Shown: piece by piece, positions 220 through 30,776 of the stretch
Layout of the letters: each line of letters begins with the position of its first letter
Position numbering within the stretch: position 1 is the stretch's first letter
NCBI GenBank assembly: GCA_938028465.1
Contig: CALJAA010000052.1
Location: 1-34,377, forward strand
Length of the DNA stretch: 34,377 nucleotides
From: an uncultured Granulosicoccaceae bacterium
Lineage (GTDB): Bacteria > Pseudomonadota > Gammaproteobacteria > Granulosicoccales > Granulosicoccaceae
Reading direction: 5' to 3'
Notes under the pieces: model-generated
The model's input: only the letters and a program-made list of their open reading frames with translations
Told to the model about the DNA's origin: nothing
Databases searched by the model: none
Translations under genes and position numbers: made by a program

Positions 220-1191
220 CTACACTTTAGGGAACCCATTTCGGCCAGGAAAATCGGCGGCAAGGGTTCGAGCATTTGGCATTTTTAACCATAAACGCAA
301 TTTCTTCCGGCGTAAGGATTGGTCATCAAAATCCTCAAACTCTGTGCGTGAATGTAATATCGCATAGTTGTTCGCAAGCTGTATATCGCCGGGCTCCATC
401 ATCATATCAATACGCATTTTGGGATCCTGCGCTATGGAATCAAACAGGTCAAAAGCTTGCACTTCTACCGCTGATAAGGGTTGCTTGACCATCTGTTGGC
501 CTAATTCAAAGTACTGGCGTAAAAATCGACAACTGATTTTCCCATCATTGAAGCTAAAAATTGGTGTAGGTGTTGGTTCTTTTGTCCCTAAGTGCGCCAT
601 GAAGTAGGAGCGATAAAATAGCGCTAAATAGTGAGGGTGATGTTCAAGTATTTCGTTGTATACCGATGCCGTGCTCACCAAGCTGCTTAAACCGCCACTT
701 TTTGCTTTTTGCAAACACAGGAGGCCAACTACGTCTGAAGGGTCGGTATGGTAGGGAAGGTAAGCGTTAGTTTCGTACACGCGGGTTTGTGCATCGTTTA
801 GATCCCCCACGTTCATAACAACGCCAAGTAAATCACCATTATGATTTTGTCTGACGGGTGTGCCCAAGTGCAACCCTATACCGTAATAGATAATCCTGAT
901 CTCTTCTTCGCTGTAGCGATCAACCGGTAGGCCCCGTAGTAGTAAAAAGCCCCGTCCATTTTCTAGTTCATCAGCAATCCTGTTTAATTCTGTTTTTAAT
1001 TCCCCGACTGGAAAATGAAGTTGAGTTAACTTATTTATCGGCAGGCCACTTGCTTGCGCCGTACGTAGTGCATCATCCAATAAATTAATTGCAGAGCTTG
1101 AAAGTTGGTGTAACCAAGAGTTATCTTGCGCGAAATCATTGCCTAACCAAGCAGACGGCCCTTTGATAGGAGTTTTTAGCATTACACTCAT
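220..1191 (-). CDS. TauD/TfdA-family Fe(II)/2-oxoglutarate dioxygenase
   Basis: Predicted cytoplasmic non-haem iron oxygenase of about 323 residues. The HxD iron ligands lie in LPYHTDPSD (H148, D150), the distal His in ILHSR (H280), and the 2-oxoglutarate-binding Arg probably in RRKKLRLWL. Members of this family hydroxylate or oxidatively demethylate small acids and betaines; the substrate here cannot be read from sequence. A longer TTG start at 1200 is possible. I prefer ATG at 1191, which has AAGGG about 9 nt upstream, overlapping the end of livF. It is the last gene of the leftward Mo-hydroxylase/ABC-importer operon, so it probably acts on the imported compound or a product of it, for example as an N-demethylase. 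That role is inference. Confidence 0.85.
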   Translation of the reverse strand: MSVMLKTPIKGPSAWLGNDFAQDNSWLHQLSSSAINLLDDALRTAQASGLPINKLTQLHFPVGELKTELNRIADELENGRGFLLLRGLPVDRYSEEEIRIIYYGIGLHLGTPVRQNHNGDLLGVVMNVGDLNDAQTRVYETNAYLPYHTDPSDVVGLLCLQKAKSGGLSSLVSTASVYNEILEHHPHYLALFYRSYFMAHLGTKEPTPTPIFSFNDGKISCRFLRQYFELGQQMVKQPLSAVEVQAFDLFDSIAQDPKMRIDMMMEPGDIQLANNYAILHSRTEFEDFDDQSLRRKKLRLWLKMPNARTLAADFPGRNGFPKV

Positions 1192-1203
1192 AAACACCAA
1201 CCC

Positions 1204-1902
1204 TTAATTAATACCCAAGTAACGATGAATTTTCCCTTGGTTGTTTTGCAGTTCGACTATGCTAACGACTTCCGGGCAACGACCATTTTCAATAAAAGCC
1301 ACTCGGTCAGCAATAGCGAGCACTGTGTCAATATGATGCTCTACTAACACGACCGCCACGCCTTGCTGTTTCATTTTTACGATCACGTCTTGTATTAAGG
1401 CGATAATAGAAGGTTGTAAACCTTCTGTAGGCTCGTCTAGCAATAAGAGCTTAGGCTCCATACTGAGTGCTCGTGCCATGGCTAACATCTGTTGCTCACC
1501 ACCGGAGAGTGTTTCAGCGCGTTGTTTAAAACGCTCACGAAGGCGAGGGAACATATCAAGTATGCGTTCACGTGTGTCGGAGCCTGAACCTTTAACCATT
1601 AGGCCTATCTCGATATTTTGAGCGACCGTGAGCTCAGAAAACAATCCTCTGCCCTGTGGTACGTAGGCGATGCCTTGCTTAGGTACTTCAAATGCAGGGA
1701 GTGCACTGAGTGTTTGATCCTCACATCGAATACTGCCTGCCTTTAAAGGCAACAATCCCATTATCGATTTTAAAGCAGTTGTTTTGCCAGCGCCGTTACG
1801 CCCCAATAGGCACAGAATTTCTCCCGCTTGTACGTCGAGTGACACATCAAACAACACTTGAACCTTGTCGTAGGCTACTTCGACATTGTTTAAACTAAGC
1901 AT
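1204..1902 (-). CDS. livF: LIV-type ABC transporter ATP-binding protein (LivF-like)
   Basis: Second ATPase of a branched-chain-amino-acid-type importer, 232 residues, the usual LivF length. Walker A is GRNGAGKTT (about 34-42), the signature is LSGGEQQMLAMARAL (about 134-148), Walker B is LLLLDEPTEGL, and the H-loop lies in LVEHHID. The start overlaps the end of livG by 8 bp, which indicates translational coupling. LivF-type subunits pair with LivG at the inner membrane to power LivH/LivM. In this operon, with molybdenum hydroxylase and ring-reduction genes nearby, the cargo is probably the aromatic substrate rather than leucine. The symbol denotes the family, not a proven substrate. Confidence 0.93.
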   Translation of the reverse strand: MLSLNNVEVAYDKVQVLFDVSLDVQAGEILCLLGRNGAGKTTALKSIMGLLPLKAGSIRCEDQTLSALPAFEVPKQGIAYVPQGRGLFSELTVAQNIEIGLMVKGSGSDTRERILDMFPRLRERFKQRAETLSGGEQQMLAMARALSMEPKLLLLDEPTEGLQPSIIALIQDVIVKMKQQGVAVVLVEHHIDTVLAIADRVAFIENGRCPEVVSIVELQNNQGKIHRYLGIN

Positions 1903-2617
1903 TGGCGATACCTAGGTAAGCTGCTTGCACGTCATCGTTAGCACGGATTTCCTGCGGAGTACCTTCCGCCAACACTTCGCCAAAATTCAGCACGGTAATT
2001 AGATCTGCAGTTGCCATGACAACGTCCATATTGTGCTCAATCAGCAGAATGGTTGTATCGCCAGCTAGACTTTTCATTAATGTGATAAAGGATTCAATTT
2101 CTTCCGCTGACAAACCTTGTGTAGGCTCATCGAGTATGAACAAGCTAGGGGATTGCGCTAGCCCCATAGCAATTTCAAGTAGCCGTTGATGGCCGTAACT
2201 AAGATCGCCTGCGATCTGTTCGTGTCTATCGGAGAGGTTAACGCGATCAAGCGCATCTGCTACTCGTTGGTTAACAGAGATCGAATCTGTTTTTTGATTG
2301 ACTCGGCGTGCGGCTAATGCAACGTTTTCATGTACTGATAAGTTAGAGAAGATCGAAGTAATCTGAAACGTATAAGCCATGCCCAAGCCTATACGTTTAT
2401 GTGCTGGTAACTCAGTAACGTCTTTACCATTAAAAGTAACCGTGCCACTAGTAGAAATGATCTTACCGCTTAACATGCCTACAAAAGTTGATTTACCCGC
2501 GCCGTTTGGCCCGATAATGGCGCGAATCTGCCCCTGCGGTAAACTAAAATCAACGTTATTAACAGCAGTTAAACCCGCATATTGTTTCGTTAGGCCACGT
2601 GTTGAGAGTAGTGTCAT
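1895..2617 (-). CDS. livG: LIV-type ABC transporter ATP-binding protein (LivG-like)
   Basis: First ATPase of the importer, about 240 residues. Motifs are Walker A GPNGAGKST, signature LSYGHQRLLEIAMGL and Walker B LFILDEPTQGL, with the H-loop in LLIEHNMD. A GTG at 2626 would add three residues. ATG at 2617 is better: it overlaps the livM stop as ATGA and has AAGGTGG 6 nt upstream. The C-terminus ends in YLGIANA, typical of LivG-type proteins. It acts with LivF, LivH, LivM and the binding protein encoded upstream. Confidence 0.93.
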   Translation of the reverse strand: MTLLSTRGLTKQYAGLTAVNNVDFSLPQGQIRAIIGPNGAGKSTFVGMLSGKIISTSGTVTFNGKDVTELPAHKRIGLGMAYTFQITSIFSNLSVHENVALAARRVNQKTDSISVNQRVADALDRVNLSDRHEQIAGDLSYGHQRLLEIAMGLAQSPSLFILDEPTQGLSAEEIESFITLMKSLAGDTTILLIEHNMDVVMATADLITVLNFGEVLAEGTPQEIRANDDVQAAYLGIANA

Positions 2618-3570
2618 GGTAACCACCTTATTACTCGCTTGCGTAGCATACCGGCTATACCTTGCGGAGCAAACAACGTCAGTAAGATCAGCGCCACACC
2701 TGCAACTAATAGGTATGCACTCGTAAATTCACTGGATATGTCGATCAGGTAGAACATAAATAACGCGCCTATCAATGGTCCGATAGTCGTGCCTGCACCA
2801 CCTAACAGCACATATAGTAATGGAAATATGGAGTATTGAACTGTAGCGAATGTACCCCCAACATAGCCAAACAACAACGCGTAGGCGGCTCCCGCGGCGC
2901 CAGACATCGTGCCTGAAATGACCACCGCAATCCATTTATGCAGTTGCACATTGTACCCCAGCATTCTGGCGCGTTCTTCATTCTCCCTTATGGCCACAAG
3001 CGTTTTACCAAAACCGCTTTGCACAATCCAACCAATAATCAGCAAACAAAAACCGAATAGAAATACTGAAACGAAGTAACGGTTGGTAGCATGGCTTAAG
3101 TCGAACCCTGCGATCATTCTTTGGCTTTGTTTAATAACAAACCCTTCGTCGCCTCGAGTGTATTCACCCATGAGCAGTATCGTCAGATAGCCTGCTTGAG
3201 CAAACATGAGCGTGACGATCATGAACGCAACACCGGTAGTACGCAGCGCTAAAAACCCAATTACAGCAGAGACAAAGGCGGCGAAGCCTAAACCTGCGAT
3301 TAAACCAACCAAAGGTGGAGCATTTAGGTACTGCATGGCTAGACCAAGGCCGTACATGCCGGATGCGAAAAACAATGCATGCCCGAGGCTGAGCAAACCG
3401 GTGTAGCCAAAGAGCAGGTTGTAACCCATGGCATAAATTGCCAGGATAAGCACTCTAGCGATAATGCCACTGTGATATTCCGGCAACACTAAAAATGACA
3501 CAGCCAGCACAGCAATAATAGAAAGGTGTAAGCCCAGTGCTTTTAGCTTAGTATTTGATGACGTACTCAT
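2614..3570 (-). CDS. livM: LIV-type ABC transporter permease (LivM-like)
   Basis: Inner-membrane permease of 318 residues with about eight to ten hydrophobic helices. It carries the family motif near GYNLLFGYTGLLSLGHALFF (about 49-68) and the EAA-like loop IRENEERARMLGYNV that contacts the ATPase. It overlaps livH by 4 bp (ATGA) and livG by 4 bp, so the permease and ATPase genes are tightly coupled. Length and motif spacing are normal. It forms the translocation pore with LivH. Confidence 0.93.
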   Translation of the reverse strand: MSTSSNTKLKALGLHLSIIAVLAVSFLVLPEYHSGIIARVLILAIYAMGYNLLFGYTGLLSLGHALFFASGMYGLGLAMQYLNAPPLVGLIAGLGFAAFVSAVIGFLALRTTGVAFMIVTLMFAQAGYLTILLMGEYTRGDEGFVIKQSQRMIAGFDLSHATNRYFVSVFLFGFCLLIIGWIVQSGFGKTLVAIRENEERARMLGYNVQLHKWIAVVISGTMSGAAGAAYALLFGYVGGTFATVQYSIFPLLYVLLGGAGTTIGPLIGALFMFYLIDISSEFTSAYLLVAGVALILLTLFAPQGIAGMLRKRVIRWLP

Positions 3571-4493
3571 GATTCACGTTTGCCAAACAGGCCCTGTGGC
3601 CGAAAGATCAATACAAATGCAACCAGGAGTGTGGCTAAAATTTTTGCAAGTGTTGGCGAAAAAAACACAGAAATAATGCCGTCACTCATGCCGATTAAAA
3701 TGGCCGCCACGATAGTGCCCGGTATGCTGCCAAGCCCTCCAATAATCACGACAATAAATGAAAGCAACAATGGGTCACCACCCATTAAGTAATGAGCCTG
3801 CTGAATGGGTACTATCAATACCGCTGCAAGTGCTGCGATTGCCGCGCCCAAGCCAAACACCAAAGCATAGACTTTTTCTACCGGGATACCATGAGCCAAA
3901 GCCATATCACGATTAAGCTGAGTGGCTCGCATGATAAGCCCAGCACGCGTGCGAGTCATCAGTAACCATAAACCTATTAACACCACGACAGCAGCTGCTA
4001 TCACAGCTAACTTGTAAGTTGTGGTGCTTAAACCCCATGGCCAGTACATTGCAAAACCATCTGCACCGTTTTCAAACCAGGGCAAGGCAATACGTTTATT
4101 AAATGGTGCTTCAACCGGGCGAGCATCAGCGCCAAATGTCATTAGTGTGAGTTGTTGAAGTACGTACAACAAACCAATAGTTGCGACGATAGTTCGCTCC
4201 GGGTCGTAATCGATACGGCGCAGTACGAGATGATCAGCGAGGGCGGCTATAGCCCCTACCAATAAGGGCGCGACAATCAGTGCTACGACAAAGCCGTACG
4301 CGGGATGCCCGCCGATCAGGGATGTGATCCACCAAGCGATTACAGCACCGAGCATATAAAACTCACCGTGCGCAACGTTTACCACTCGCATAATGCCAAA
4401 TACGATACTTAACCCCACCGCCATTAACGCAAGGACGGCTGCACCAATTGCACCTTCAAGTGTTGCTAATAATAAATGAGGACCAAATTCCAT
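3567..4493 (-). CDS. livH: LIV-type ABC transporter permease (LivH-like)
   Basis: Second inner-membrane permease, 308 residues and strongly hydrophobic. The N-terminal motif GLSIVFGIMRVVNVAHGEFY (about 27-46) is the LivH hallmark, and FRPQGLFG lies at the C-terminus. About 150 bp separate it from the upstream binding-protein gene, and that gap contains a hairpin. This commonly gives more transcript for the binding protein than for the membrane subunits. The stop overlaps the livM start. Confidence 0.93.
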   Translation of the reverse strand: MEFGPHLLLATLEGAIGAAVLALMAVGLSIVFGIMRVVNVAHGEFYMLGAVIAWWITSLIGGHPAYGFVVALIVAPLLVGAIAALADHLVLRRIDYDPERTIVATIGLLYVLQQLTLMTFGADARPVEAPFNKRIALPWFENGADGFAMYWPWGLSTTTYKLAVIAAAVVVLIGLWLLMTRTRAGLIMRATQLNRDMALAHGIPVEKVYALVFGLGAAIAALAAVLIVPIQQAHYLMGGDPLLLSFIVVIIGGLGSIPGTIVAAILIGMSDGIISVFFSPTLAKILATLLVAFVLIFRPQGLFGKRES

Positions 4494-4547
4494 ACGATTG
4501 TTTAACGCTATGTTGTAGTAAATAGCCGAACTTAATCAATACAAATA

Positions 4548-4577
4548 AAAGCACACCCACATTAGTGAGTGTGCTTT
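4548..4577 (-). terminator. Hairpin between binding-protein and permease genes (partial terminator)
   Basis: Arms 4548-4560 and 4565-4577 pair over 13 bp with one mismatch, around a 4-nt ATTA loop. On the leftward transcript the stem is followed by a U-rich stretch (TTTTATTTGT). It lies inside the operon, 70 bp after the binding-protein stop, so it probably acts as a leaky terminator or mRNA 3'-end stabiliser that favours binding-protein expression. Confidence 0.6.
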
Positions 4578-4646
4578 CTATTAGCCCATAATGGCGTTTG
4601 ATTTTATCTTAGTACTGCGAGTGCAGTAGAGTTTGTTTAATAGCGA

Positions 4647-5951
4647 TCAAAATGACTGTGTTGTGTAGTCAACTTCATCTTCATAAAGTGTATCTTCAAT
4701 GGAAGTCGTATGTGCTAGCACTAGTTTTCCGCCTTCGACTTTAGAAATGTATTGATGCCCAAAGGTTTGGTGAGTTTTACCGTTGAACACTTTGGCCCCT
4801 TGCGGATGCGCATGAGAATGCGGCATATCACTCATGGCTTCAACTGCTTCGATTAACTTTGATCGATCAGCTGCGCCTTGATAGTCAGCCGCTTCCATAC
4901 CTGCTTTTATGATGTGCAGCGTTTCCCAACAACCAAACATATGCGCAAAGGTGGATACATCTTTTGAATCCGAAACAGATGCGCCGTTTTCATCAACGCC
5001 TACCGCTTCTCTATAGGCCTTATCAAACTCTGATTGATCTTCTTGTGCATAACGTGGCATACCCTCCCAAAAGTAAGTTCCATCTAGAAACTCTAGGCCT
5101 GGGCTTGTCATATCGACGGCTTCTAAGCTATCGATAAATCCGAATATCTCAGGGCGACTAGGGCCAAAGAATTCGCCCATCTCTTTAACAAATGTCAGTA
5201 CTGCTGGGCCAACCATCACGTGATAAATGACTTCGGTTTCCCTAGGTATTTTTGGAAAATACTTGGTGAATGATGTTTCAGTTGGTGGGATCGCTATTTT
5301 TTCTAATATGGTGCCACCTTGAGCTTCAAACGCTGCTGAGAAATAATCTCTGTGGTCGTGCCCAAACGCAAAGTCTGGATAAATCATCGTCACTTTTTTG
5401 CCAAGATTCTCAGAGATGAAAGGCGCCATGGCTTGTACTTGGCTTTTTACATCAGTGATACCCGGCTGCAATGTATATCGATTTAATTTGCCACTCGCCA
5501 CATGGTGCCCCTCAGATACAACAAAGTAAGGCATTTTTAATTCACCAGCGCGTGGAGCAGAGCCATAAACTACGTGGCTAAACAAAGTACCAAATGACAC
5601 ATCGCATTTATGCTGACTAGCAAACTTCTCAACGACTTCTGCACCACGCTTTGGATCAGTGCCGTCATCCTCAGCCACTATCTCTATCGGTCGACCATTA
5701 ATTCCACCTTCTGCATTAATCTTTGCAACGCAGGCTTCAGTGGTACGGTCATACCAACGACCATACGCTGCACCAATGCCTGTTCGATGAACTTGAAAGC
5801 CGATTCGAATGGGCTCCGCGCTATGCGCTTGATTGTAACCGGGTAAGCCAGGAAGCATGCCAGCGGCAGCTACTGTGCCTGCGCCAACGGCTAGTGTTTT
5901 AAGCGCGCGACGTCGATTGGGTTGAAATAGGGAGTCTTTGATGTCGGTCAT
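4647..5951 (-). CDS. Periplasmic substrate-binding protein of the LIV-type importer, Tat-exported
   Basis: 434 residues, Peripla_BP_6 type (Leu/Ile/Val, urea and amide binding class). The N-terminus has a twin-arginine-like signal (RRRALKTLAVGAGTVAAAG) ending near AHSA, so folded export by Tat is likely. The mature part begins EPIRIGFQVHRTGIGAAYG, with INAEGGINGRPIEIVAEDDG, typical of the family. The start at 5951 has AGAGGAA about 9 nt upstream. It is followed by permease and ATPase genes and preceded by the membrane protein and Mo-hydroxylase genes, so it presumably captures the compound degraded by this cluster. The ligand cannot be deduced from sequence. Confidence 0.9.
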   Translation of the reverse strand: MTDIKDSLFQPNRRRALKTLAVGAGTVAAAGMLPGLPGYNQAHSAEPIRIGFQVHRTGIGAAYGRWYDRTTEACVAKINAEGGINGRPIEIVAEDDGTDPKRGAEVVEKFASQHKCDVSFGTLFSHVVYGSAPRAGELKMPYFVVSEGHHVASGKLNRYTLQPGITDVKSQVQAMAPFISENLGKKVTMIYPDFAFGHDHRDYFSAAFEAQGGTILEKIAIPPTETSFTKYFPKIPRETEVIYHVMVGPAVLTFVKEMGEFFGPSRPEIFGFIDSLEAVDMTSPGLEFLDGTYFWEGMPRYAQEDQSEFDKAYREAVGVDENGASVSDSKDVSTFAHMFGCWETLHIIKAGMEAADYQGAADRSKLIEAVEAMSDMPHSHAHPQGAKVFNGKTHQTFGHQYISKVEGGKLVLAHTTSIEDTLYEDEVDYTTQSF

Positions 5952-6010
5952 GTTTAGCGTTCCTCTTTGTTTCGTTGGTGATACAGCTTTATGATGAGTG
6001 TCTTGGCATC

Positions 6011-6047
6011 ATTTGTACAACTAATCTTTGCTATTTTGATCAAAATA
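6011..6047 (-). promoter_or_regulatory. Putative promoter/operator of the binding-protein gene
   Basis: A perfect 16-bp palindrome, TATTTTGATCAAAATA, lies at 6032-6047. On the leftward strand it contains a -35-like TTGATC, and TGTACA follows after about 18 bp. The -10 area overlaps ATTTGTACAACTAAT (6011-6025), which partly resembles the MarR-type palindromes at 11.26 and 16.30 kb. An internal promoter about 60 bp upstream of the binding-protein start is plausible. The regulator of the TTGATCAA palindrome is unknown. Confidence 0.4.
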
Positions 6048-6064
6048 TCGCGTTAAATCGGTGC

Positions 6065-6086
6065 AATTAGGCTTAACAGCCTGATT
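6065..6086 (-). terminator. Weak hairpin between membrane-protein and binding-protein genes
   Basis: AGGCT (6069-6073) pairs with AGCCT (6078-6082) around TAAC, and the flanking AAT/ATT can extend the stem past a mismatch. No strong U tract follows on the leftward strand. At most it would attenuate read-through from the Mo-hydroxylase genes into the transporter genes. Confidence 0.3.
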
Positions 6087-6103
6087 TTTGGATTGTGATT
6101 AAT

Positions 6104-7516
6104 CTAAGCTCCTCGCGGCGCTGCCAACAGCCACAAGCCCAGCAACGTATACAAGATCATAAATAACGCTAACGGTATCTGGCTGAACACCGCTCGACGT
6201 GTATCGTTCCACAGCCTTGTGGCGATTGAATGCGCGAGCATAACTGATAGAACATGGCCGATGACGACGGCAATCGCTTGAGTAAGCCATATGATCTTTA
6301 CGGTAGCCTGAGTATTAAAGAACCCCGTACTGACATAAAACTTGCCTAAACCCAAGAGATCTCGCCCAGATTGCATTGGGTCGGTAGCCGCCGCTAACGC
6401 ATATTGCGAATTCACCAAAAATGCCGTTAAAAAATGCGCAAAATGATAGGCCAATGCGATAGGTAGAATGGAGGCAGACAGCTGTATAAATGATTCGCGA
6501 AACGACACGGTACTGGTTTGACGATAATTGGCAAGCAGCACTCCTAACCACACGCACAATGCAAAGCACCCTACAAGCAAAATAACGCTCAGTACTAAGC
6601 CGCCCACCGTTTGATAGATCACTGCCGAGCGCCCTGGAAACTCGAGCGGATTGATACCCAATAAACCAAGCCAGTAAAACGTTTCGTTTAAGCCATCGAA
6701 ACTCCCGATGGCGAGTAGGGTTAGGATAAATACAGCGGCGCTAATTGAAACAACAGGGCGTTTAAACAACTGCCAACCGGGAAGTCCCACATGCACTGCC
6801 TTTTTACTGGTGTTTATCAGGGATAATTGAGCCATTCGGTTTAACAATACGGTAAAACATTCACAACGCTGAAGCCAAACATTACCTCCAAAAACGATCA
6901 TTCCCACGAGGGTAAATAACCAATACCCGGATACCACAATCATTAAACGTAAAGGGTCCTCCGGTGCAGGGTCTGCCAGTGCAAAACAACTAAAGATAAT
7001 GTAAATAAACACTGCTGGCCAAACGCCAGAGCGTTGCGGTAGGTTTAAAATAGGCTGGCTTAGATTGATAAAACCGCTCAGTACTTTGTAGATCCCTGTC
7101 CAGGGGTTAACCCAATGCCACACATTGCCAAACACGCCTTGTAAACAGACAAATCCGATCCACCATATTGTCCAGATGGTAAGCGGTAGTAAGTTTTTTA
7201 GTGGATCGTGTGGGCCAATGCTGCCGATGATTAACAAACCAATAAGAATACTTAACGATGCAAGGCTTGTAACAATAGATGCTGAGGATAGGCTGGGTAG
7301 ACGAATTAGCTGTTTGCTGTCAAACAAACCGGTACTTAACCGCGCGGGCAGTACAGCTAATATTAATACCGATAAAATAACAGCCATTACGCCGGCACCG
7401 ATATAAACATTAGTGGGTAGTAGCAACACAAACCCTTGTTCAGAGGTATGTGCCAACCCGGCAACAGCGTACAAACACAAGCCTAACGCCACACCGCTTG
7501 GAACGTATCTATTCAC
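6104..7516 (-). CDS. Polytopic inner-membrane protein of unknown function
   Basis: 470 residues with about eleven or twelve hydrophobic helices spread over the whole length. The N-terminal helix may be a cleaved signal (VAGLAH). Two His-containing motifs lie in late helices, AYHFAHFL (about 365-372) and IGHVLSVMLAH (about 428-438). From memory these resemble membrane proteins labelled fenitrothion-hydrolase-like in actinobacteria, a label that says little about function. The GTG start overlaps the end of the Mo-hydroxylase gene by 8 bp, so the two are co-translated. That position suggests a role in redox coupling, metal or cofactor supply, or substrate passage for the hydroxylase. I cannot assign one. 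Confidence 0.8.
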   Translation of the reverse strand: MNRYVPSGVALGLCLYAVAGLAHTSEQGFVLLLPTNVYIGAGVMAVILSVLILAVLPARLSTGLFDSKQLIRLPSLSSASIVTSLASLSILIGLLIIGSIGPHDPLKNLLPLTIWTIWWIGFVCLQGVFGNVWHWVNPWTGIYKVLSGFINLSQPILNLPQRSGVWPAVFIYIIFSCFALADPAPEDPLRLMIVVSGYWLFTLVGMIVFGGNVWLQRCECFTVLLNRMAQLSLINTSKKAVHVGLPGWQLFKRPVVSISAAVFILTLLAIGSFDGLNETFYWLGLLGINPLEFPGRSAVIYQTVGGLVLSVILLVGCFALCVWLGVLLANYRQTSTVSFRESFIQLSASILPIALAYHFAHFLTAFLVNSQYALAAATDPMQSGRDLLGLGKFYVSTGFFNTQATVKIIWLTQAIAVVIGHVLSVMLAHSIATRLWNDTRRAVFSQIPLALFMILYTLLGLWLLAAPRGA

Positions 7517-10259: not shown

Positions 10260-11095
10260 AATGAGATAACCAGTGTGTCTATTGATCGCTTTAGTAGCTC
10301 GACAGCGGCAATATGACGATAATCAGCTGTAGCACGAACGTCATCAATAGCGGATAACTCTGCAACGTGTTGGGTGGCGACTCTATCGCTAAGCTCAGCG
10401 TTAAGCGCGTTGCCTATCAACGATTGCTCCAGTGCTGATAACCGACGCGCAACTACCGAGCAAGACCCGACACTCAGTGCGGCATCAGTCACGATATTAT
10501 TGTTATCAACCGCTATCCGTGTTGCTACCATCGCGATAGAAATCACTAAGTACTTGCGAGCGCCTAGTTTTAGAAAACATGATCGCCCATTTGAAGACGC
10601 CTTGGGTATTAATAGATCAATGACCATTTCACCATCAGCAAGGGTGGTTTGTCGATTGCCAGTAACAAAATCCTGTAAAGCGATATCACGCATGCCAGTT
10701 TTTGATGATACGCGTACGATCGTATCCAAACACAGCAAAGCGGGCATACCATCTGCAGCAGGAGACGCGTTACAGATATTGCCGGCAACGGTGGCACGGT
10801 TTTGTATTTGCACGGAACCTACTTCGAGTGCAGCAAGTTTTAACGCATTGAATGCCTCTGGAAGCTTTGCTTGAATAACGTCCGTCCATGTAGCTAATGC
10901 GCCAATATGCCAATGCGATTCATCCTCGTGGATGGTGCGTAGCGTGCTTAATTTTGATATATCGAGTACGTTGCCAGTGGGCTGTGAATTACCCAGCGCA
11001 GGATAATAATCTGTCCCGCCAGAGACTAACGACCAATTATCATCAGCAAGCAGTGATAGCGCTTCTTGGGTTGTCTTCGGTTGGGCAAATTTCAT
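10253..11095 (-). CDS. FAD-binding subunit of the molybdenum hydroxylase (CoxM/XdhB type)
   Basis: 280 residues. The N-terminal FAD-binding region includes VSGGTDYYPAL (about 20-30) and TVAGNICNASPAADGMPALL, the signature of the medium subunit of CO dehydrogenase/xanthine dehydrogenase enzymes. It takes electrons from the [2Fe-2S] clusters of the fused partner and passes them to an unknown acceptor. It is the first gene of the leftward operon; its stop overlaps the start of the Mo subunit gene. ATG at 11095 gives a normal family N-terminus (MKFAQPKTTQEAL), although the ribosome-binding site is weak. The promoter lies in the divergent region just upstream. Confidence 0.9.
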   Translation of the reverse strand: MKFAQPKTTQEALSLLADDNWSLVSGGTDYYPALGNSQPTGNVLDISKLSTLRTIHEDESHWHIGALATWTDVIQAKLPEAFNALKLAALEVGSVQIQNRATVAGNICNASPAADGMPALLCLDTIVRVSSKTGMRDIALQDFVTGNRQTTLADGEMVIDLLIPKASSNGRSCFLKLGARKYLVISIAMVATRIAVDNNNIVTDAALSVGSCSVVARRLSALEQSLIGNALNAELSDRVATQHVAELSAIDDVRATADYRHIAAVELLKRSIDTLVISLC

Positions 11096-11140
11096 CAGCG
11101 AAAGCGCACTTGATTATTTGACAATAGGGTATGAAATTAA

Positions 11141-11158
11141 GAATATCAGTATATTCAT
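11141..11158. promoter_or_regulatory. Operator-like inverted repeat at the leftward (hydroxylase) promoter
   Basis: GAATAT-CAGT-ATATTC (11141-11156) is a perfect 6-bp inverted repeat with a 4-bp spacer. The segment 11145-11158 matches the palindrome at 11265-11278 at 11 of 14 positions. It covers the leftward -10 TATACT, so a bound repressor would block the hydroxylase/transporter operon. Confidence 0.5.
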
Positions 11159-11263
11159 TTGTATGCATTCGATAATTCCTGGTGCATAGCTAGCTCTGCT
11201 ATAACTAATAGGCCAGAGCCACATAAAACCTGAATTTATAACGAATTGACAGGCTAGAATACA

Positions 11264-11279
11264 CATTAGTATACTAATG
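11264..11279. promoter_or_regulatory. Perfect 16-bp operator palindrome at the reductase promoter
   Basis: CATTAGTATACTAATG is a perfect palindrome lying over the -10 hexamer that follows TTGACA. Its core GTATACTA recurs at 16302-16309 in front of the MarR and enamidase-like genes. Size and position fit a MarR-family repressor site. Confidence 0.65.
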
Positions 11280-11429
11280 AATATAATCGTGATTGGCCTG
11301 GTTTGACTACGTCATTTTTTTATCGGGTTTCAAGGCGAAAACACCAGCGATTAAACTAGCGAACAAATCGTATTCAAGCAGTGCTATTAGTTTTAGTGCT
11401 TTTAGAATTAATAAATTAGGATTATTCGT

Positions 11430-12908
11430 GTGACCGAAGAGCAAGCTAAACCCGTCAAAATTAGATGCGATGCGTGCCCGGTAATGTGTTACGTCGCAAA
11501 CGGTCGCACGGGTGCATGTGATCGCTACGCTAACGAAGACGGACAGCTTGTTCGAGTAGACCCATTAACCATCTTAGAGCGTGGCACAAGCGAAGTTGTG
11601 CCGTTTCTTAAAAAAGACGAACGATGGGATGGCAATATTGTTGCCTCTGAAGATCAATTTGTTACCGCCATTGGCGCTGGCACGACCTATCCTGATTACA
11701 AGCCCGCTCCTTTCATTGTTGGCAGTACACATGAAGGTATTGATATGGTCACCGTGGTAACTGAAGGCATTTTCAGTTACTGCGGCGCGAAAGTAAAAAT
11801 AGATACTGATCGTCATATCGGAGCAGAACGCAGTTTGGTCCGTGCCAAAGGCGAGGCGATTGGTCATGTCACTACAGGCGAATACGGCTCGCAGATGTTG
11901 TCGATTGGTGGCGTTCATCATTTAACGGGTGGAAGCAAAAAGGAAGGCCGCCTAACCTGTGAGTCACTCATGGCTTTGTGTAATAGCGAAGCCGTGGAGC
12001 TGACCATTGATGATGGCTCTGACTTGGTAGTTCAAGCGAATAAACCCCCAATAATTAATGGTGTCGTTGAAGAACGCATGCGAGTTGGGTGTGGATCTGC
12101 CACCGTTGGCATGTTCGCGTCCCAATGGAAGGGCTTGGTTGATGAAGTCGTCGTTGTCGACGACCATATCACCGGCGTAATGTCAGAACATCAAGCCGGT
12201 AAAGTTATCGGCTGGGAAAAAACCGGCATAAAAATAAATGGCAAAAAATCGACACCGGGCCGGTACTTTCAAGTGGCAGAGCCTGGCACTGGCTGGGGCG
12301 GCACAAACCTAACCGATCCACTCACTATCCTTAAAGACTTTGATGCAAAGTTTGCCCAAGCCGGACTATCAATTTTAATGGTGTCCACCACAGGTGAGCA
12401 GTTTAGTTACTACGAGCTAGATGACGAACTAAAACCTCAACAACTAGAAATACCTGCGCGCCTACAAGCGTCCATCCGCAGAATTGAAGAAAATTGCGAG
12501 CCGGCACTGTGCTCAGTGATGTTTATGGGTGGTGCTGGTGGGTCATTGCGTGCAGGCGTGACTGAAAACCCGGTCATGCTAACTCGATCTGTTCAACAAG
12601 CAATAACCCGTGTCACTTGCGCTGGCGCACCAACGTTTCGTTGGCCAGGGGGTGGCATAACCATCATGGCGGATGTGACGCGTATGCCTAATTATTCCTT
12701 TGGCTATGTACCAACTCCAGCGTTAGTTGCGCCAATTGAATTCACACTTACACGTGCCGCCTACGAATCGCTTGGCGGCCATATGAATCACATCATGCCG
12801 ATTGAAGATGCGGTAAAAGGTGTTTTAGGACCGCAAAACGATCACTTATTAGCTGGCCGTGCAGGCGCTAAATGGCATGACGACAACCCATGGCCAATAG
12901 GGGATTAA
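11430..12908 (+). CDS. hnr: 6-hydroxynicotinate reductase-like iron-sulfur flavoprotein
   Basis: 492 residues resembling the family annotated as 6-hydroxynicotinate reductase. In Eubacterium barkeri that enzyme reduces 6-hydroxynicotinate to 1,4,5,6-tetrahydro-6-oxonicotinate and carries Fe-S clusters and a covalently bound flavin. Visible here: an N-terminal cluster motif C13-x2-C16-x3-C20-x9-C30, seven more cysteines (118, 177, 184, 221, 356, 361, 397), and glycine-rich stretches GGAGGSLRAG and RWPGGGI. The GTG start at 11430 has AGGA 8 nt upstream. It leads the rightward operon and lies 3 bp before the UPF0280 gene. With the Mo-hydroxylase and enamidase-like genes it supplies the ring-reduction step. 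The natural substrate could also be another pyridine carboxylate or an N-methylated pyridinium. Family call is firm, substrate is not. Confidence 0.85.
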   Translation: MTEEQAKPVKIRCDACPVMCYVANGRTGACDRYANEDGQLVRVDPLTILERGTSEVVPFLKKDERWDGNIVASEDQFVTAIGAGTTYPDYKPAPFIVGSTHEGIDMVTVVTEGIFSYCGAKVKIDTDRHIGAERSLVRAKGEAIGHVTTGEYGSQMLSIGGVHHLTGGSKKEGRLTCESLMALCNSEAVELTIDDGSDLVVQANKPPIINGVVEERMRVGCGSATVGMFASQWKGLVDEVVVVDDHITGVMSEHQAGKVIGWEKTGIKINGKKSTPGRYFQVAEPGTGWGGTNLTDPLTILKDFDAKFAQAGLSILMVSTTGEQFSYYELDDELKPQQLEIPARLQASIRRIEENCEPALCSVMFMGGAGGSLRAGVTENPVMLTRSVQQAITRVTCAGAPTFRWPGGGITIMADVTRMPNYSFGYVPTPALVAPIEFTLTRAAYESLGGHMNHIMPIEDAVKGVLGPQNDHLLAGRAGAKWHDDNPWPIGD

Positions 12909-12911
12909 GCG

Positions 12912-13835
12912 GTGGCATTGTGGGATAAACCGGTGGTAAACCGCTTAAGTGATAACCGTCTACAGTTACGCCACGGCCCAATCGAGCTGATCATCGAAGC
13001 GTTTGGCTCACAAACTGAAGTTGACGCAGCCTATCAACAAGCAGTTAATTCGTTTGCCACCGTACTCGAAGATTTAGCGGGTGAGCTAAACGAACTCAGA
13101 AAACAAACCAATGCAAACGCTCACTTGTTTAAAGGCGATATTGCCAAACAAATGGTAAAGGTGGCAGAATCATTTGCCCATCGTCATTTTATAACCCCAA
13201 TGATTGCTGTTGCAGGTGCAGTGGCCGACCATGTTCTTCACTATATGGTTATGGATAGAAACCTAAGCAGGGCTTACGTTAACAACGGCGGGGATATCGC
13301 CCTTTTTTTAAACGATAAAGAAAGCTTCAATATAGGCGTGTGTGCCAACCCACATACAGGCGCCATTGTGTCTCAGGCCAAAATAACTGAAGATAGTGAT
13401 GTTAGAGGGATAGCCACTAGCGGTTGGCGCGGGCGTAGCCATTCGTTGGGCATAGCTGATTCTGTAACAGTTCTTGCCCGCAATTCTGCTATCGCGGATG
13501 CAGCCGCAACACTAATTGCCAATGCCATCGATTTACCAAATCATCCAATGATAAAACGAGCAACTGCTACTGAGTTGAGCCCCGATAGCGATTTGGGTAA
13601 TCGATTGGTCACTGTTGATGTTGGAACGATATCACCTGCGGAATCTAAAACAGCTTTGAACTTGGGGCAGAAGCTTGCACAGTCACTGATAGAATCTAAG
13701 CAGATTACTAGCGTGTACGGTAGCCTGAACGACGAGGTGTTTTCGTTATATCCTTCATTGCAACCAACAGCGCTATACAAGGCTCCCAGCCAATCTAACT
13801 TTGATAACGTTCAAAAGGAACAAGCCAGTGCCTGA
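12912..13835 (+). CDS. UPF0280-family protein, ApbE-like fold
   Basis: 307 residues. Motifs recall ApbE-type FAD:protein FMN transferases: VNNGGDIAL (about 123-131), RGIATSGWRGRSHSLGIADS (165-184), then TVLAR and IADAAATLIANAI (194-206), which parallels the metal/flavin-binding ADAxAT segment of ApbE. The UPF0280 family has no settled function. The gene starts with GTG 3 bp after the reductase stop and overlaps the next gene by 8 bp, so it is strictly co-expressed with the reductase. Because the characterised reductase carries a covalent flavin, a flavin-attachment role is an attractive inference. A separate catalytic step in ring degradation is equally open. About 40 C-terminal residues are less conserved in character. 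Confidence 0.8.
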   Translation: MALWDKPVVNRLSDNRLQLRHGPIELIIEAFGSQTEVDAAYQQAVNSFATVLEDLAGELNELRKQTNANAHLFKGDIAKQMVKVAESFAHRHFITPMIAVAGAVADHVLHYMVMDRNLSRAYVNNGGDIALFLNDKESFNIGVCANPHTGAIVSQAKITEDSDVRGIATSGWRGRSHSLGIADSVTVLARNSAIADAAATLIANAIDLPNHPMIKRATATELSPDSDLGNRLVTVDVGTISPAESKTALNLGQKLAQSLIESKQITSVYGSLNDEVFSLYPSLQPTALYKAPSQSNFDNVQKEQASA

Positions 13836-14412
13836 AGTAATTGTCAGAAAAAGTTTTATTACGATCGAAGATATATTTCATGAAGGTGGACCCATCGCTT
13901 CGGTTCCGTTACGTCGGGCCGTTGTGGCCACTGTCATCCAAAACCCTTATGCGGGACGCTATGTTGAAGATATTGTCCCATTTATCGATGACTTAAAACC
14001 TCTAGGCACCAGCATGGCGCAGCACCTGATTGAAGCCTTGGGTGGTGATGCCAACGTTGTTGAAGGTTATGGCAAAGCATGCATAGTGGGTTCAGCTGGT
14101 GAGGTAGAGCACGGTGCACTTTGGCATGCACCAGGTGGATACTCTATGCGGGACAATTTACCTGCATCCAATGCCATCGTACCGTCTACCAAAAAAGTGG
14201 GTGGCCCGGGCACTCGTATCGATGTGCCGGTGACTCATTGCAATGCGTCTTATGTGCGTTCGCATTTTGATTCTATCGAAGTGGGGATTAACGATGCTCC
14301 CAAAGCCGACGAAATGCTCGTCATTTTGGTGATGACCACGGGCGCAAGAATCCATAATCGCGCAGGCGGCCTAGACGCAAAAGATATCAAAGGTGAGGAT
14401 GGCTTAAGATGA
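13828..14412 (+). CDS. AA_synth (DUF1185) family protein, copy 1
   Basis: 194 residues of the PF06684 family, known from structures with a chorismate-mutase-like fold and no firmly assigned reaction. Motifs shared with the next gene are NP(Y/F)AG(R/K)Y, YGKA, GEVEH, a run of DVP before AYVRSHFD-like residues (SYVRSHFD here), and NDAPKADE. The GTG at 13828 is preferred over an upstream TTG at 13801: AAAAGGAA lies about 7 nt before it, and it overlaps the UPF0280 stop by 8 bp. The stop overlaps the start of copy 2 as ATGA. Lying between ring reduction and enamidase-like genes, it may process a reduced-ring or ring-opened intermediate; no reaction can be read from sequence. Confidence 0.82.
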   Translation: MPEVIVRKSFITIEDIFHEGGPIASVPLRRAVVATVIQNPYAGRYVEDIVPFIDDLKPLGTSMAQHLIEALGGDANVVEGYGKACIVGSAGEVEHGALWHAPGGYSMRDNLPASNAIVPSTKKVGGPGTRIDVPVTHCNASYVRSHFDSIEVGINDAPKADEMLVILVMTTGARIHNRAGGLDAKDIKGEDGLR

Positions 14413-14987
14413 AAATACGTAAAATTGTAACCACTGTTGAAGAGACTCATCTAGAGATGGGTAAGGCGATCAACCCCCCGACGCGACGAGCCGCATCAAC
14501 GGCTGTGATAGAAAACCCTTTTGCAGGAAAGTATCAAGAGGATCTTGAGGCCCTTATGACTATCGGCGAGCAACTAGGCGCACAACTTGGCAAAAATTGT
14601 GTTGATGCTTTAGGGATTGAACCTAAAGATGCCGAGAGTTACGGCAAGGCTGCCATGGTAGGCGAGAATGGCGAACTTGAACACGCGGCTGCGATCTTAC
14701 ATCCTAAGCTGGGTAAGCCACTACGCGCTGCAGTTGAAAAAGGCGCAGCGCTTGTAGCTTCATCTAAAAAAATGGGATCAATGGGGCACCCATTGGATGT
14801 ACCGTTAGGGCATAAGGATGCTGCCTATGTGCGCTCACATTTTGACGGTATGGAAGTACGCATCAACGATGCTCCTCGCGCGAATGAGATAATGGTGTCT
14901 ATTGTTGTGACGGATTCAGGGCGGCCACTACCACGAGTAGGTGGGCTTGAACATGCCGATGCAAAAGGTGAAGACGGCCTGCGATAA
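14409..14987 (+). CDS. AA_synth (DUF1185) family protein, copy 2
   Basis: 192 residues, a diverged tandem paralogue of the preceding gene. Both share AYVRSHFD/SYVRSHFD, NDAPRANE, YGKA, GELEH and a nearly identical end (KGEDGLR). Differences are concentrated in the N-terminal 50 residues and in the segment after GELEH, which suggests either different substrates or a heteromeric complex. ATGA overlap with copy 1 implies equal expression. It is the last gene of the rightward operon; an inverted-repeat element follows. The Pfam name AA_synth should not be taken as evidence for amino-acid synthesis. Confidence 0.82.
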   Translation: MKIRKIVTTVEETHLEMGKAINPPTRRAASTAVIENPFAGKYQEDLEALMTIGEQLGAQLGKNCVDALGIEPKDAESYGKAAMVGENGELEHAAAILHPKLGKPLRAAVEKGAALVASSKKMGSMGHPLDVPLGHKDAAYVRSHFDGMEVRINDAPRANEIMVSIVVTDSGRPLPRVGGLEHADAKGEDGLR

Positions 14988-15004
14988 TGCTCATCCCCGA
15001 GCTT

Positions 15005-15069
15005 GTCATCCCCGCGAAGGCGGGGACCCACTTCCCCGTGTGCTAGATCCCCGCCTGCGCGAGGATGAC
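15005..15069. repeat. REP-like inverted pair between convergent genes
   Basis: GTCATCCCCGCGAAGGCGGG begins at 15005 and is a self-complementary hairpin element. An inverted, slightly diverged copy (GATCCCCGCCTGCGCGAGGA...) occupies 15046-15069. The two can form either separate hairpins or one long cruciform. It sits between the convergent AA_synth and enamidase-like genes and could also stop transcription in both directions. A truncated relative is at 16810. Confidence 0.75.
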
Positions 15070-15073
15070 GAGG

Positions 15074-16255
15074 CTAGCCGTCCACCACCTCAGGCAAACG
15101 TGTAGCTGGCGGTGTATTACGGCTTCTATGAGAACGAACAATACCGTCAATAATCGTCATCCCAATACCCGGTAAATTGCCTTGATGGATACTCTCCAAC
15201 ATATCTTTACCTGGCGAATGTTGTGCTTGGTCGAGCAAAATCATATCCGCTGATTTGCCCACTTCGATAATCCCACTGTTGAGCTCCCGCATGCGGGCAG
15301 TGTTGCCTGTAGCAAAGCAAAAAGCTATTTCAGCCGGTACATTGCCAAGGCTAGATAACATTGCGATCATTCGCAAAATACCTAAGGGTTGTACGCCAGA
15401 ACCAGCAGGGGAATCGGTGCCTAGTATCACTCGTTCCGCTTCTTTTATTTCAAAGGCTGTACGCATAGCAAGCAAACCAGCTCGCTCATTGCCGTTGTGC
15501 ACGATTTCAATACCGCGGCTGCAACTCTCGCACAGGCAGGTAATTTGATTATCAGGCAGAGCAGTATGGCCTCCATTGATGTGACCAATAATATCGGCAT
15601 CGGCTTCAAGCACGGTGTCGGCATCGATTAAACCCGAACCAGGGATAGAAGGCCCTCCCGTATGAATAGTGGATTGAATGCCGTACTTACGAGCCCACTT
15701 AACCATCTGCGCTGCTGTTTCACCGGCCTTAACAGACCCAAGCCCGACTTCACCTAACAACTTAACTCCAGCGTCGGCTAAATCCTTAAAATCATGCTCC
15801 TCCATGCCTTCTTCAAGTACTGGCGCTCCCGCTAACATTTTTACACCAGAAGGGCGGAAATTTTCGTACCACCGTTGCGAAGCAATGGCCATCGCTTTTA
15901 GTCCAACGATATCCTTTGGTCTTCCGGGTGCATGAACTTCACCGGCTGATATCATCGTGGTAACACCACCATGCAAGCACGAATCTATCCAGCCCAATTG
16001 CTGTTGCCGTGGCGTGTAGTCACCAATCACTGGGTGCACATGGCTATCGATTAATCCCGGCGATAGCCAATTGTCATTGGCGTTAACTTTGGTAGTGGCT
16101 TCAGAGGTATCTAACTCTTTTTCGTAACCAATGCTGGAGATAAGCCCGTCTTCACAGATCACGCAATTACCGTCTATCAACGGCTCCTCGAGCTTGCCCG
16201 AAAGGATCTGTGCTATGTTCGTGATAACGAGTTTTTGCTTGGCCGCTGCAGACAT
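15074..16255 (-). CDS. ena: Enamidase-like amidohydrolase
   Basis: 393 residues of the amidohydrolase superfamily (metal-dependent TIM barrel). Probable metal ligands are H72 and H74 (HVHP), bridging E169 (GEVGLG), H198 (IHTGG), H225 (GHINGG) and D281 (GTDSPAGSG). Overall pattern and length match enamidase of E. barkeri, which opens 1,4,5,6-tetrahydro-6-oxonicotinate to 2-formylglutarate and ammonia. The lone cysteines C240, C242 and C245 form a tight cluster that looks unusual. It is divergent from the MarR gene, and its leftward promoter (TTGACC, about 16 bp, TAGTAT) overlaps the operator-like GTATACTA. Together with the hydroxylase and reductase it supports a ring-opening route; other cyclic enamide or lactam substrates remain possible. 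Confidence 0.8.
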   Translation of the reverse strand: MSAAAKQKLVITNIAQILSGKLEEPLIDGNCVICEDGLISSIGYEKELDTSEATTKVNANDNWLSPGLIDSHVHPVIGDYTPRQQQLGWIDSCLHGGVTTMISAGEVHAPGRPKDIVGLKAMAIASQRWYENFRPSGVKMLAGAPVLEEGMEEHDFKDLADAGVKLLGEVGLGSVKAGETAAQMVKWARKYGIQSTIHTGGPSIPGSGLIDADTVLEADADIIGHINGGHTALPDNQITCLCESCSRGIEIVHNGNERAGLLAMRTAFEIKEAERVILGTDSPAGSGVQPLGILRMIAMLSSLGNVPAEIAFCFATGNTARMRELNSGIIEVGKSADMILLDQAQHSPGKDMLESIHQGNLPGIGMTIIDGIVRSHRSRNTPPATRLPEVVDG

Positions 16256-16299
16256 TGGCTTGTCTCAATAATGATTGATAGGGGTAACTCAGATGTTGT

Positions 16300-16313
16300 T
16301 TGTATACTATCAA
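16300..16313. promoter_or_regulatory. Operator-like site between enamidase-like and MarR genes
   Basis: TTGTATACTATCAA contains GTATACTA (16302-16309), identical to the core of the 11.26-kb palindrome. On the leftward strand it overlaps a -10 (TAGTAT) spaced 16 bp from TTGACC; on the rightward strand it lies about 30-45 bp before the MarR start. This suggests repression of the enamidase-like gene and autoregulation. Confidence 0.55.
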
Positions 16314-16344
16314 TATATAAAGATGGGTCAAGTATAGATTTCTC

Positions 16345-16767
16345 ATGGCTGCACCAAAAACTTATATCCTAGAAAACCAAATTGGGCATATCCTGCGAAA
16401 GGTTAGCCAGCGCCACTCTGGGATATTTGCCAATCATATGCCGGCTGATTTAACACCAACGCGTTTTGCTGCAATGGCTAAGCTATTGGAGTGTGGGCCG
16501 TTATCGCAAAATGAATTAGGTCGATTAACCGCGATGGATGTAGCAACAATCAAGGGCGTTGTTGATCGGCTTCGTGTGCGTAAGCTAGTGGACAGTAAAA
16601 AAGACCCAACGGATGCCAGAAGGCAGTTGATCAAGCTTACTCGCAAAGGTGAGGCGTTTATTCAAGCGGCAATACCTGAGGCAGTGACGGTAACTGCTCA
16701 AACGATAGACCCGTTGTCCACGGCTGAGTCGAAGCAACTGATTAAGTTGCTGAATAAATTGTTGTAG
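16345..16767 (+). CDS. MarR-family transcriptional regulator
   Basis: 140 residues. The winged-helix region runs from about 35 to 105: LTPTRFAAMAKLLECGPLSQ, NELGRLTAMDVATIKGVVDR (recognition helix), then the wing DPTDARRQLIKLT. This resembles the MarR subgroup that includes NicR/BpsR, repressors of nicotinate catabolism that respond to 6-hydroxynicotinate. That comparison is from memory and untested. Its likely operators are the GTATACTA palindromes at its own promoter and in the 11.1-11.4 kb divergent region. It would act as a repressor released by the substrate or an early intermediate. ATG at 16345 has no clear ribosome-binding site. Confidence 0.88.
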   Translation: MAAPKTYILENQIGHILRKVSQRHSGIFANHMPADLTPTRFAAMAKLLECGPLSQNELGRLTAMDVATIKGVVDRLRVRKLVDSKKDPTDARRQLIKLTRKGEAFIQAAIPEAVTVTAQTIDPLSTAESKQLIKLLNKLL

Positions 16768-17939: not shown

Positions 17940-17982
17940 AGTTATTCCTATCACTTAAGCTGCTTAAATCGTTATTACTACC

Positions 17983-29457: not shown

Positions 29458-29525
29458 CTCGAGTTATAACTTGGTTGGGTTGTGTTATCGGATAAATTTT
29501 CTGGCTATCTGTCAACAAATTACTG

Positions 29526-30395: not shown

Positions 30396-30776
30396 TTTAA
30401 TCCTTGAGAATATACTGTTAAATATCAATGGCTTAAGCAATTTGCGAATATGCATATATATACATATAACGTAATCTTTATATGATAATGACGCATATAT
30501 CGTTCCATTGCAACTGTCGATTTAATGACGCATACGAAGATAATATGACGAGTATTGGTTTTAGAGCAGTGAGGATCCGGTCGAGTCAGCTTATGGGTTG
30601 ATAGCGCGTGATAGATCGTTCGCGCTCGGCGGTGTATTTTTTCTCACGATTAACAATGCAAAACCGGCTACCGATACTTTGTTACGAATCAATTCTCCTG
30701 ATTCAACTGTCTTCATCGGTGAGACGGCCAGCTAATGGTTGCCGCCTTATTTCTAGCCTAGCCGTATAATAGAACC
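30396..30776. promoter_or_regulatory. Divergent 381-bp control region (metF / phosphatase)
   Basis: AATGACGCATA occurs twice in direct orientation (30487-30497 and 30524-30534), with a degenerate third copy ATATGACGAG at 30543-30552; spacing is about 37 and 20 bp. An AT-rich track TGCATATATATACATATAA lies nearer metF (about 30451-30469) and may hold its -10. These repeats could bind a metF-metH regulator. I looked for SAH and SAM riboswitch cores and MetJ-like AGACGTCT and found none. At the right end is TATAAT (30765-30770) for the phosphatase gene. Confidence 0.45.
30765..30770 (+). promoter_or_regulatory. -10 element placed for leaderless transcription
   Basis: TATAAT ends 6 bp before the ATG at 30777, so transcription would begin at or next to the start codon. 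No Shine-Dalgarno sequence is present. A -35 candidate (TTGCCG, 30739-30744) is weak and 20 bp away. Confidence 0.45.

Follow-up and report, generated by a model that had tools for sequence, protein, structure and literature searches.

In the fermentation of nicotinate by Eubacterium barkeri, reportedly described by Alhapel and colleagues in 2006, the first three steps fall to a hydroxylase, a 6-hydroxynicotinate reductase and an enamidase. The nic pathway of Pseudomonas putida likewise begins with hydroxylation of nicotinate at C6 and then proceeds by oxidative steps. A cluster encoding a hydroxylase, a reductase, an enamidase and an importer has been reported for Azorhizobium caulinodans, Bradyrhizobium japonicum, Rhodopseudomonas palustris HaA2 and strain SG-6C; that report places a homologue of the E. 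barkeri reductase (42% identical) within the conserved cluster of these proteobacteria and describes growth of strain SG-6C on nicotinate with transient 6-hydroxynicotinate (PMC3511419). The same paper terms Azorhizobium aerobic, citing Kitts 1989 and 1992, and takes the A. caulinodans route onward through glutarate, while a second paper covers the E. barkeri/A. caulinodans route and calls it anaerobic (PMC9304392). Under either description, the enzyme set is already in print for proteobacteria other than strict anaerobes. Here we describe a further example of this cluster type, in a Granulosicoccaceae-like marine gammaproteobacterium. It lies within 34,377 nucleotides (hereafter the window) that make up a complete contig (CALJAA010000052.1, 1-34377); the draft genome to which this contig belongs measures 4.1 Mb and is 88.8% complete. 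The cluster most likely serves uptake and degradation of vitamin B3 (nicotinate) by the route already described in proteobacteria.

An original prediction, made from the letters of the window, had treated an E. barkeri-type gene set in an apparently aerobic proteobacterium as a surprise and its importer as foreign to the described route. The first three E. barkeri steps are indeed encoded, and related sequences place the host among the proteobacteria; its aerobic life is presumed. In PMC3511419, however, the route is already described in proteobacteria, whose clusters contain an importer and further conserved proteins, so the surprise is not new. The value of the locus lies in a comparative pattern, above all the pairing of the reductase (Hnr) with a UPF0280 protein.

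Gene content and predicted nicotinate route

All the genes named in the original prediction are present at 220-16767, closely packed and with ends overlapping in several cases. Family matches among the 30 window proteins scanned bear out a molybdenum hydroxylase (Mo-hydroxylase), UPF0280, two AA_synth proteins, the enamidase (Ena, as an amidohydrolase), an importer, a TauD-family dioxygenase and a MarR regulator. From 11095 down to 220, the minus strand encodes the FAD and fused Fe-S/Mo subunits of the hydroxylase, the polytopic membrane protein (MemP), the binding protein, two permeases and two ATPases of a LIV-type importer (importer A), and TauD. The plus strand from 11430 carries Hnr, UPF0280 and the two AA_synth genes, followed by Ena (minus) and a MarR-family regulator (plus) (Table 1).

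Two of these proteins point most directly to nicotinate. The enamidase aligns over its whole length with that of E. barkeri (PDB 2vun; 383 residues, E 1.1e-104), with 168 of 383 residues identical (44%). Hnr has no match in Pfam at E 0.001 or in NCBIfam at E 0.01; 26 plasmid records hold proteins related to it at 58.5-71.4% identity over most of the length, of which 17 are annotated '6-hydroxynicotinate reductase' and the others hypothetical or unannotated. An alignment of 40 sequences likewise supports the identification. The Mo-hydroxylase belongs to the family expected for C6 hydroxylation of nicotinate, although membership alone cannot tell the substrate. Because the enamidase resembles its E. 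barkeri counterpart, the Hnr relatives carry this annotation and the gene set is shared with clusters that include that of nicotinate-growing strain SG-6C, nicotinate is the best-supported substrate. Gene content, co-occurrence and operator conservation were computed here; substrate, reactions and repression we infer from homology and from what is generally known about these families. On this footing, the cluster very probably encodes nicotinate uptake and breakdown by the reductive 1,4,5,6-tetrahydro-6-oxonicotinate (THON) route of E. barkeri and proteobacteria, with a UPF0280-dependent Hnr and MarR control at the palindrome TTAGTATACTAA.

In the proposed scheme, importer A would take up nicotinate, and the Mo-hydroxylase would hydroxylate it at C6 with water. 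Hnr would carry out the two-electron reduction of 6-hydroxynicotinate to THON, which the enamidase would open to 2-formylglutarate and ammonia; the carbon may then pass onward through glutarate, as reported for Azorhizobium. A working Hnr is predicted to require UPF0280, most likely for cofactor handling, and a MarR repressor at TTAGTATACTAA would govern the divergent operons.

The palindrome is perfect and occupies 11266-11277, where the FAD and Hnr operons diverge; nowhere else does the 4.1 Mb draft contain it exactly. Upstream of Hnr it recurs exactly in the sister locus (L001), with 1 mismatch in L002, L003, L005 and L006, and with 2 in L004; upstream of Ena, it has 0 mismatches in L003 and L004, 1 in L002 and L063, and 2 in L001. 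In the loaded loci, matches of this quality (up to 2 mismatches) have a background rate of 0.024 per kb. Beyond close relatives it was mostly not found, with an Hnr-upstream match in 9 of 95 loaded loci, of which the one in L063 is an artifact of a missing gene start. An operator called by count alone was rejected, and weight is placed only on the exact match and its conservation. The simplest reading is that one MarR site serves both operons and the Ena/MarR gap, with MarR suggested as the binder by its position. Of the single regulon originally proposed, the part that stands is the site between the FAD and Hnr operons, conserved near Hnr and Ena; neither LivH nor the binding protein has a copy upstream at up to 3 mismatches.

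Several observations weigh against the nicotinate assignment and its control. The NCBIfam matches of the Mo-hydroxylase all fall under their cut-offs, the best being xanthine-dehydrogenase-type and other family members. PDB matches to the binding protein of importer A are weak (best E 7e-13), and importer A is present on two plasmids with no Hnr match (Sagittula sp. P11 and Rhizobium sp. SSA_523). Nor is TTAGTATACTAA enriched, either in the window (3 found versus 1.86 expected at up to 3 mismatches) or in the draft genome (with up to 1 mismatch allowed, 5 places versus 16 for the control pattern read in reverse).

Co-occurrence of Hnr and UPF0280

We compared 118 Hnr loci, comprising 66 from named genomes, 9 of the 26 plasmid loci, 23 from the genus or family of the window and 20 of 74 order-level loci chosen by hand to span scores. 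Loci were scored by BLAST against window and reference proteins; many stop short at a contig end or at the limit set on flanks, and at least one duplicate contig is included (L017 = L096). The closest Hnr relatives in named genomes belong to uncultured Granulosicoccaceae (L001, 87%; L002, L003 and L006, 79%; L004, 76%), and the cluster is also found in marine SAR116 and Rhodobacteraceae relatives. UPF0280 was in view in 104 of the 118 loci and directly beside Hnr in 83, an arrangement that exceeds chance. At least one AA_synth gene was in view in 94. Both families, first taken for peculiar additions, are thus usual companions of Hnr.

The association extends to whole genomes. Two panels were examined: 57 relatives of the window, weighted to its genus (panel 1), and 297 genomes from the order of Nitratireductor aquimarinus (G004, L026; panel 2). 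In panel 1, Hnr was detected in 27 genomes and UPF0280 in 30, including all 27 with Hnr. The three genomes with UPF0280 alone (G012, G030 and G040; 74, 82 and 84% complete) also have Ena, and because of this Hnr is probably missing only from the assemblies. Of the 27 pairs, 10 have the two genes within 500 bases of each other, 13 have them farther apart (up to 20 kb) but on one contig, and 4 have them on separate contigs. Panel 2 contains 74 genomes with Hnr, 73 with UPF0280 and 71 with both. Genomes with Hnr but no UPF0280 are G184, G247 and G288 (partial Hnr matches in the last two); those with UPF0280 but no Hnr are G249 and G136, the latter with a fragment (E 1e-5). Uncorrected for relatedness, Fisher tests gave 3.5e-13 (panel 1) and 3.5e-62 (panel 2).

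As a yardstick, the enamidase (E <=1e-90, at least 60% identity) was found in 48 of the 297 genomes. Since 71 of the 74 Hnr genomes have UPF0280 and 42 have the enamidase, the enamidase is replaceable and UPF0280 hardly so. The same counts make ring-reducing nicotinate degradation look common in Proteobacteria, with Hnr in 74/297 genomes at order level and in 27/57 relatives in the genus-weighted panel. Four UPF0280 genes contain one in-frame stop each (G010:C138:50469-51299, G017:C99:19113-19976, G029:C18:69267-70106 and G043:C56:6237-7169), TGA in three and TAG in one; the Hnr matches there are stop-free, and the stops reflect either sequencing error or decay.

The UPF0280 protein of the window scores 348.5 bits to NF003322 (cut-off 290), and a fold search returned the ApbE flavin-transferase fold. 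A tie to 2o34 of Desulfovibrio links it here to COG2122, which we take to be the same family. In Vibrio ApbE, His257 is the catalytic His acting as general base (PMC12052999); His177 of UPF0280, the nearest candidate by sequence, is kept in 27 of 42 sequences.

In Hnr, Cys 13, 16, 20, 30, 118, 177, 221 and 356 are present in 99-100% of 70 sequences. The ApbE target motif, D-x-x-[ST]-G-A-[ST], occurs in none of the 70 and was rejected as a conserved feature of Hnr, the only client tested. The Cys motif, at residues 13-30 (window 11466-11519), has G-A-C as its last three residues; in 21 of the 69 sequences with this motif it reads D-x-x-[ST]-G-A-C, which differs from the ApbE motif at a single position, probably by coincidence inside a four-Cys metal site. 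A relationship of Hnr to DUF39 gained no support, with HcyBio matching 0 of 40 Hnr sequences.

We tentatively propose, as one possibility, that UPF0280/COG2122 is a general ApbE-related maturation factor that inserts or repairs a flavin, or some other cofactor, in reductases lacking the ApbE motif, such as Hnr and, in the homocysteine pathway, DUF39. If this is true, Hnr would be inactive without UPF0280, which would explain the near-perfect genome-wide co-occurrence, including that of unlinked genes. Among the open-licence papers listed by the searches, none linked UPF0280 with Hnr. The pairing offers a second likely client for the family, testable in readily cultured bacteria.

Variable modules and alternative substrates

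Around this pair, the cluster varies in a patterned way, although shared ancestry means that exclusion counts among the 118 loci are not independent events. Ena was in view in 29 loci and HyuAB in 22, with both in none and neither in 67. HyuAB, a caprolactamase/hydantoinase-like pair, apparently stands in for the enamidase in Hnr clusters of several alphaproteobacteria. The best NCBIfam matches of the one pair scanned were caprolactamase models (NF050156/NF050157), under their cut-offs. Both the lack of loci showing Ena with HyuAB and the match to these models would be in keeping with ring opening of a lactam. HyuAB pairs were located at L068 5534-9273, L070 17002-20837 and L071 17632-21425.

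The hydroxylase is of the FAD/Mo type in 94 loci and of the NicA/NicB type alone in 10. In 7 of the 20 Hyphomicrobiales-type loci, a NicA/NicB-like hydroxylase stands beside Hnr; UPF0280, AA_synth and MarR accompany it there, most of these loci also carry importer B, and some have Ena. Importer A was in view in 34 of the 118 loci and importer B in 31, never together. Neither this exclusion, nor that of Ena and HyuAB, nor the genome-wide tracking of UPF0280 with Hnr, nor the Rieske demethylase-like gene of some relatives (below) was found in print among the open-licence papers searched.

A MemP or NCHU2750-type relative was present in 25 loci, 23 of them with importer A in view, and binding-protein relatives at 60-80% identity occur on 12 plasmid records, 10 of which are among the 26 with Hnr. 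More distant MemP relatives (25-29%) lie beside other genes in haloarchaea and actinobacteria. The neighbors of importer A in Sagittula sp. P11 are a MemP relative, a tannase-like gene, a GMC oxidoreductase and an aldehyde dehydrogenase. Sagittula sp. MA-2 has a tannase-like gene and a MemP relative ~6-18 kb away from apparent P. putida-type nic genes, annotated as FAD-dependent monooxygenase, (2Fe-2S) and molybdopterin subunits, MarR, maleate isomerase, alpha/beta hydrolase, leucyl aminopeptidase and isochorismatase family; their assignment to nic steps is our own. Although this neighborhood was seen only once and unrelated genes intervene, it hints that the MemP/importer A module handles a pyridine.

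Close relatives differ in their front ends. The window and L001 have importer A with MemP, whereas in L002, L003, L006 and L063 (Hnr 77-79% identical) the space from AA_synth to Ena holds a Rieske oxygenase gene and importer B. The opposite flank of the cluster is visible in L002 and L003, where it lacks importer A, and is truncated in L006 and L063. A Rieske gene was found in 19 of the 118 loci, 15 with importer B in view and 0 with importer A. The Rieske protein of Sagittula stellata, the only one searched, best matches DdmC, the dicamba O-demethylase, in the PDB (E 2.1e-45), with the N-demethylase NdmA lower. This exchange of importer A for importer B and a Rieske protein closest to a dicamba O-demethylase suggests that the core takes nicotinate supplied by different front ends, possibly from trigonelline in some relatives. 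Front ends swapped in this way (importer A with MemP; importer B with or without Rieske) predict marine takers of nicotinate itself versus possible trigonelline users.

Trigonelline, the N-methylated nicotinate, might also be the true substrate of the window, demethylated first and then degraded by the same route. The Rieske genes, their company with importer B, the DdmC match and the layout of L002 and L003 all suit such a substrate. We nevertheless consider it unlikely here: no Rieske protein is among the window proteins scanned, TauD would need to be the demethylase, and importer B occurs without Rieske in Hyphomicrobiales-type loci (importer B 9/20, Rieske 0/20). With Rieske genes in 19 loci and none in the window proteins scanned, trigonelline is more plausible for the Rieske-bearing relatives than for the window.

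TauD fits this demethylase role poorly. It is missing after LivF in a sister genome with the same importer A (L172), and no relative at 45% identity or above was found in the 118 Hnr loci. Relatives at 58-67% occur in five other genomes, on 6-20 kb stretches without any importer or core gene searched for. Its absence from the sister genome and the position of its relatives led us to leave TauD out of the pathway; it is probably a passenger, and its place in the originally predicted set was not upheld. As a conserved pathway part it was rejected although it lies in the window operon. Its best PDB matches are FrbJ and 7n7v ('predicted hydroxylase'). Distant TauD genes (28-29%) are present in two SAR116 loci (L034 and L037). 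The closest plasmid relative (56%; L121 7980-8981, Acinetobacter sp. NCu2D-2 plasmid) neighbors a different LIV importer, 2-dehydropantoate 2-reductase, class II aldolase, FeaR, GMC oxidoreductase and aldehyde dehydrogenase.

Another N-heteroaromatic compound handled by the same enzyme families (isonicotinate, picolinate or a purine-like lactam) is less probable still. The Mo-hydroxylase family is broad, and Hnr and Ena have few characterized members; against this stand the whole-length likeness of the enamidase to that of E. barkeri and the gene set shared with clusters of a nicotinate-growing strain. Homarine (N-methylpicolinate) is very improbable: the cluster does occur in marine SAR116 and Rhodobacteraceae, groups that reportedly carry a homarine operon, but nicotinate is the compound to which the families of the enamidase and reductase are linked, homarine reportedly yields N-methylglutamate, in which the methyl group is retained and for which other chemistry is required, and no paper describing its operon was found among the open-licence papers searched. 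Between the two options first offered, nicotinate or an N-methylated pyridine, nicotinate thus remains the preferred one.

Surrounding genes and comparison with known systems

Next to the cluster is a separate minus-strand group (window 16827-20749) encoding an AraC-type regulator, an AcnX-family cis-3-hydroxy-L-proline dehydratase (NF051439, 801.9 bits; cut-off 700) and an HDAC-family protein; in L001, HDAC and AcnX genes likewise follow MarR. Beyond it are further genes, several of them housekeeping, including an Ion_trans (voltage-gated-type) channel gene (24842-25648) and a MetH-type methionine synthase followed by methylenetetrahydrofolate reductase (25750-30455).

Table 1. Features of the predicted nicotinate cluster, with positions in the window
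Feature	Position	Strand	Basis
TauD-family dioxygenase, operon end; probably passenger	220..1200	-	PF02668
LivF-type ATP-binding protein, importer A	1204..1902	-	ABC_tran; 87% identity in sister locus L001
LivG-type ATP-binding protein, importer A	1895..2626	-	ABC_tran, BCA_ABC_TP_C
LivM-type permease, importer A	2614..3570	-	BPD_transp_2
LivH-type permease, importer A	3567..4493	-	BPD_transp_2
Substrate-binding protein, importer A; putative ligand nicotinate or close pyridine carboxylate	4647..5951	-	Peripla_BP_6
MemP, polytopic membrane protein	6104..7516	-	No Pfam match; many hydrophobic stretches
Mo-hydroxylase subunit, Fe-S and molybdopterin domains fused; putative nicotinate 6-hydroxylase	7509..10259	-	Fer2, Fer2_2, MoCoBD_1, MoCoBD_2
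Mo-hydroxylase FAD subunit	10253..11095	-	FAD_binding_5, CO_deh_flav_C
Probable MarR operator ATTAGTATACTAAT, divergent FAD/Hnr promoter region	11265..11278		Uniqueness of exact TTAGTATACTAA, conservation in close relatives
6-Hydroxynicotinate reductase (Hnr), N-terminal C-x2-C-x3-C-x9-C	11430..12908	+	Annotated plasmid relatives, conserved Cys
UPF0280/COG2122 protein, ApbE-like fold; putative Hnr maturation factor or partner	12912..13835	+	NF003322, fold search, co-occurrence
AA_synth protein 1	13801..14412	+	PF06684 E 2.1e-70
AA_synth protein 2	14409..14987	+	PF06684 E 7.9e-72; PDB 2qtp E 3.7e-92
Enamidase (Ena), amidohydrolase; predicted 1,4,5,6-tetrahydro-6-oxonicotinate to 2-formylglutarate and ammonia	15074..16255	-	PDB 2vun E 1.1e-104
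Degenerate second operator copy, 2 mismatches, Ena-MarR gap	16299..16310	+	Pattern search
MarR-family regulator	16345..16767	+	PF01047, PF12802

Among known systems, the P. putida nic pathway shares the C6 hydroxylation start, and its oxidative genes are absent among the window proteins scanned. With the E. barkeri fermentation the window has in common the first three steps, including the 44% identical enamidase; it differs in its proteobacterial host, its importer and the architecture of its hydroxylase. Some Hyphomicrobiales-type loci pair importer B (9 of 20) and a NicA/NicB-type hydroxylase (7 of 20) with Hnr, in contrast to importer A with MemP and the fused Fe-S/Mo plus FAD subunits of the window. 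Compared by their description, the published clusters resemble that of the window in having an ABC transporter and other conserved proteins alongside hydroxylase, Hnr and enamidase, and in their proteobacterial hosts (PMC3511419). In the homocysteine system of COG2122, DUF39 and NIL/ferredoxin proteins, the COG2122 protein is required alongside another enzyme (PMC5764234). The window's own genome has no HcyBio (DUF39) match, and the likely client here is Hnr.

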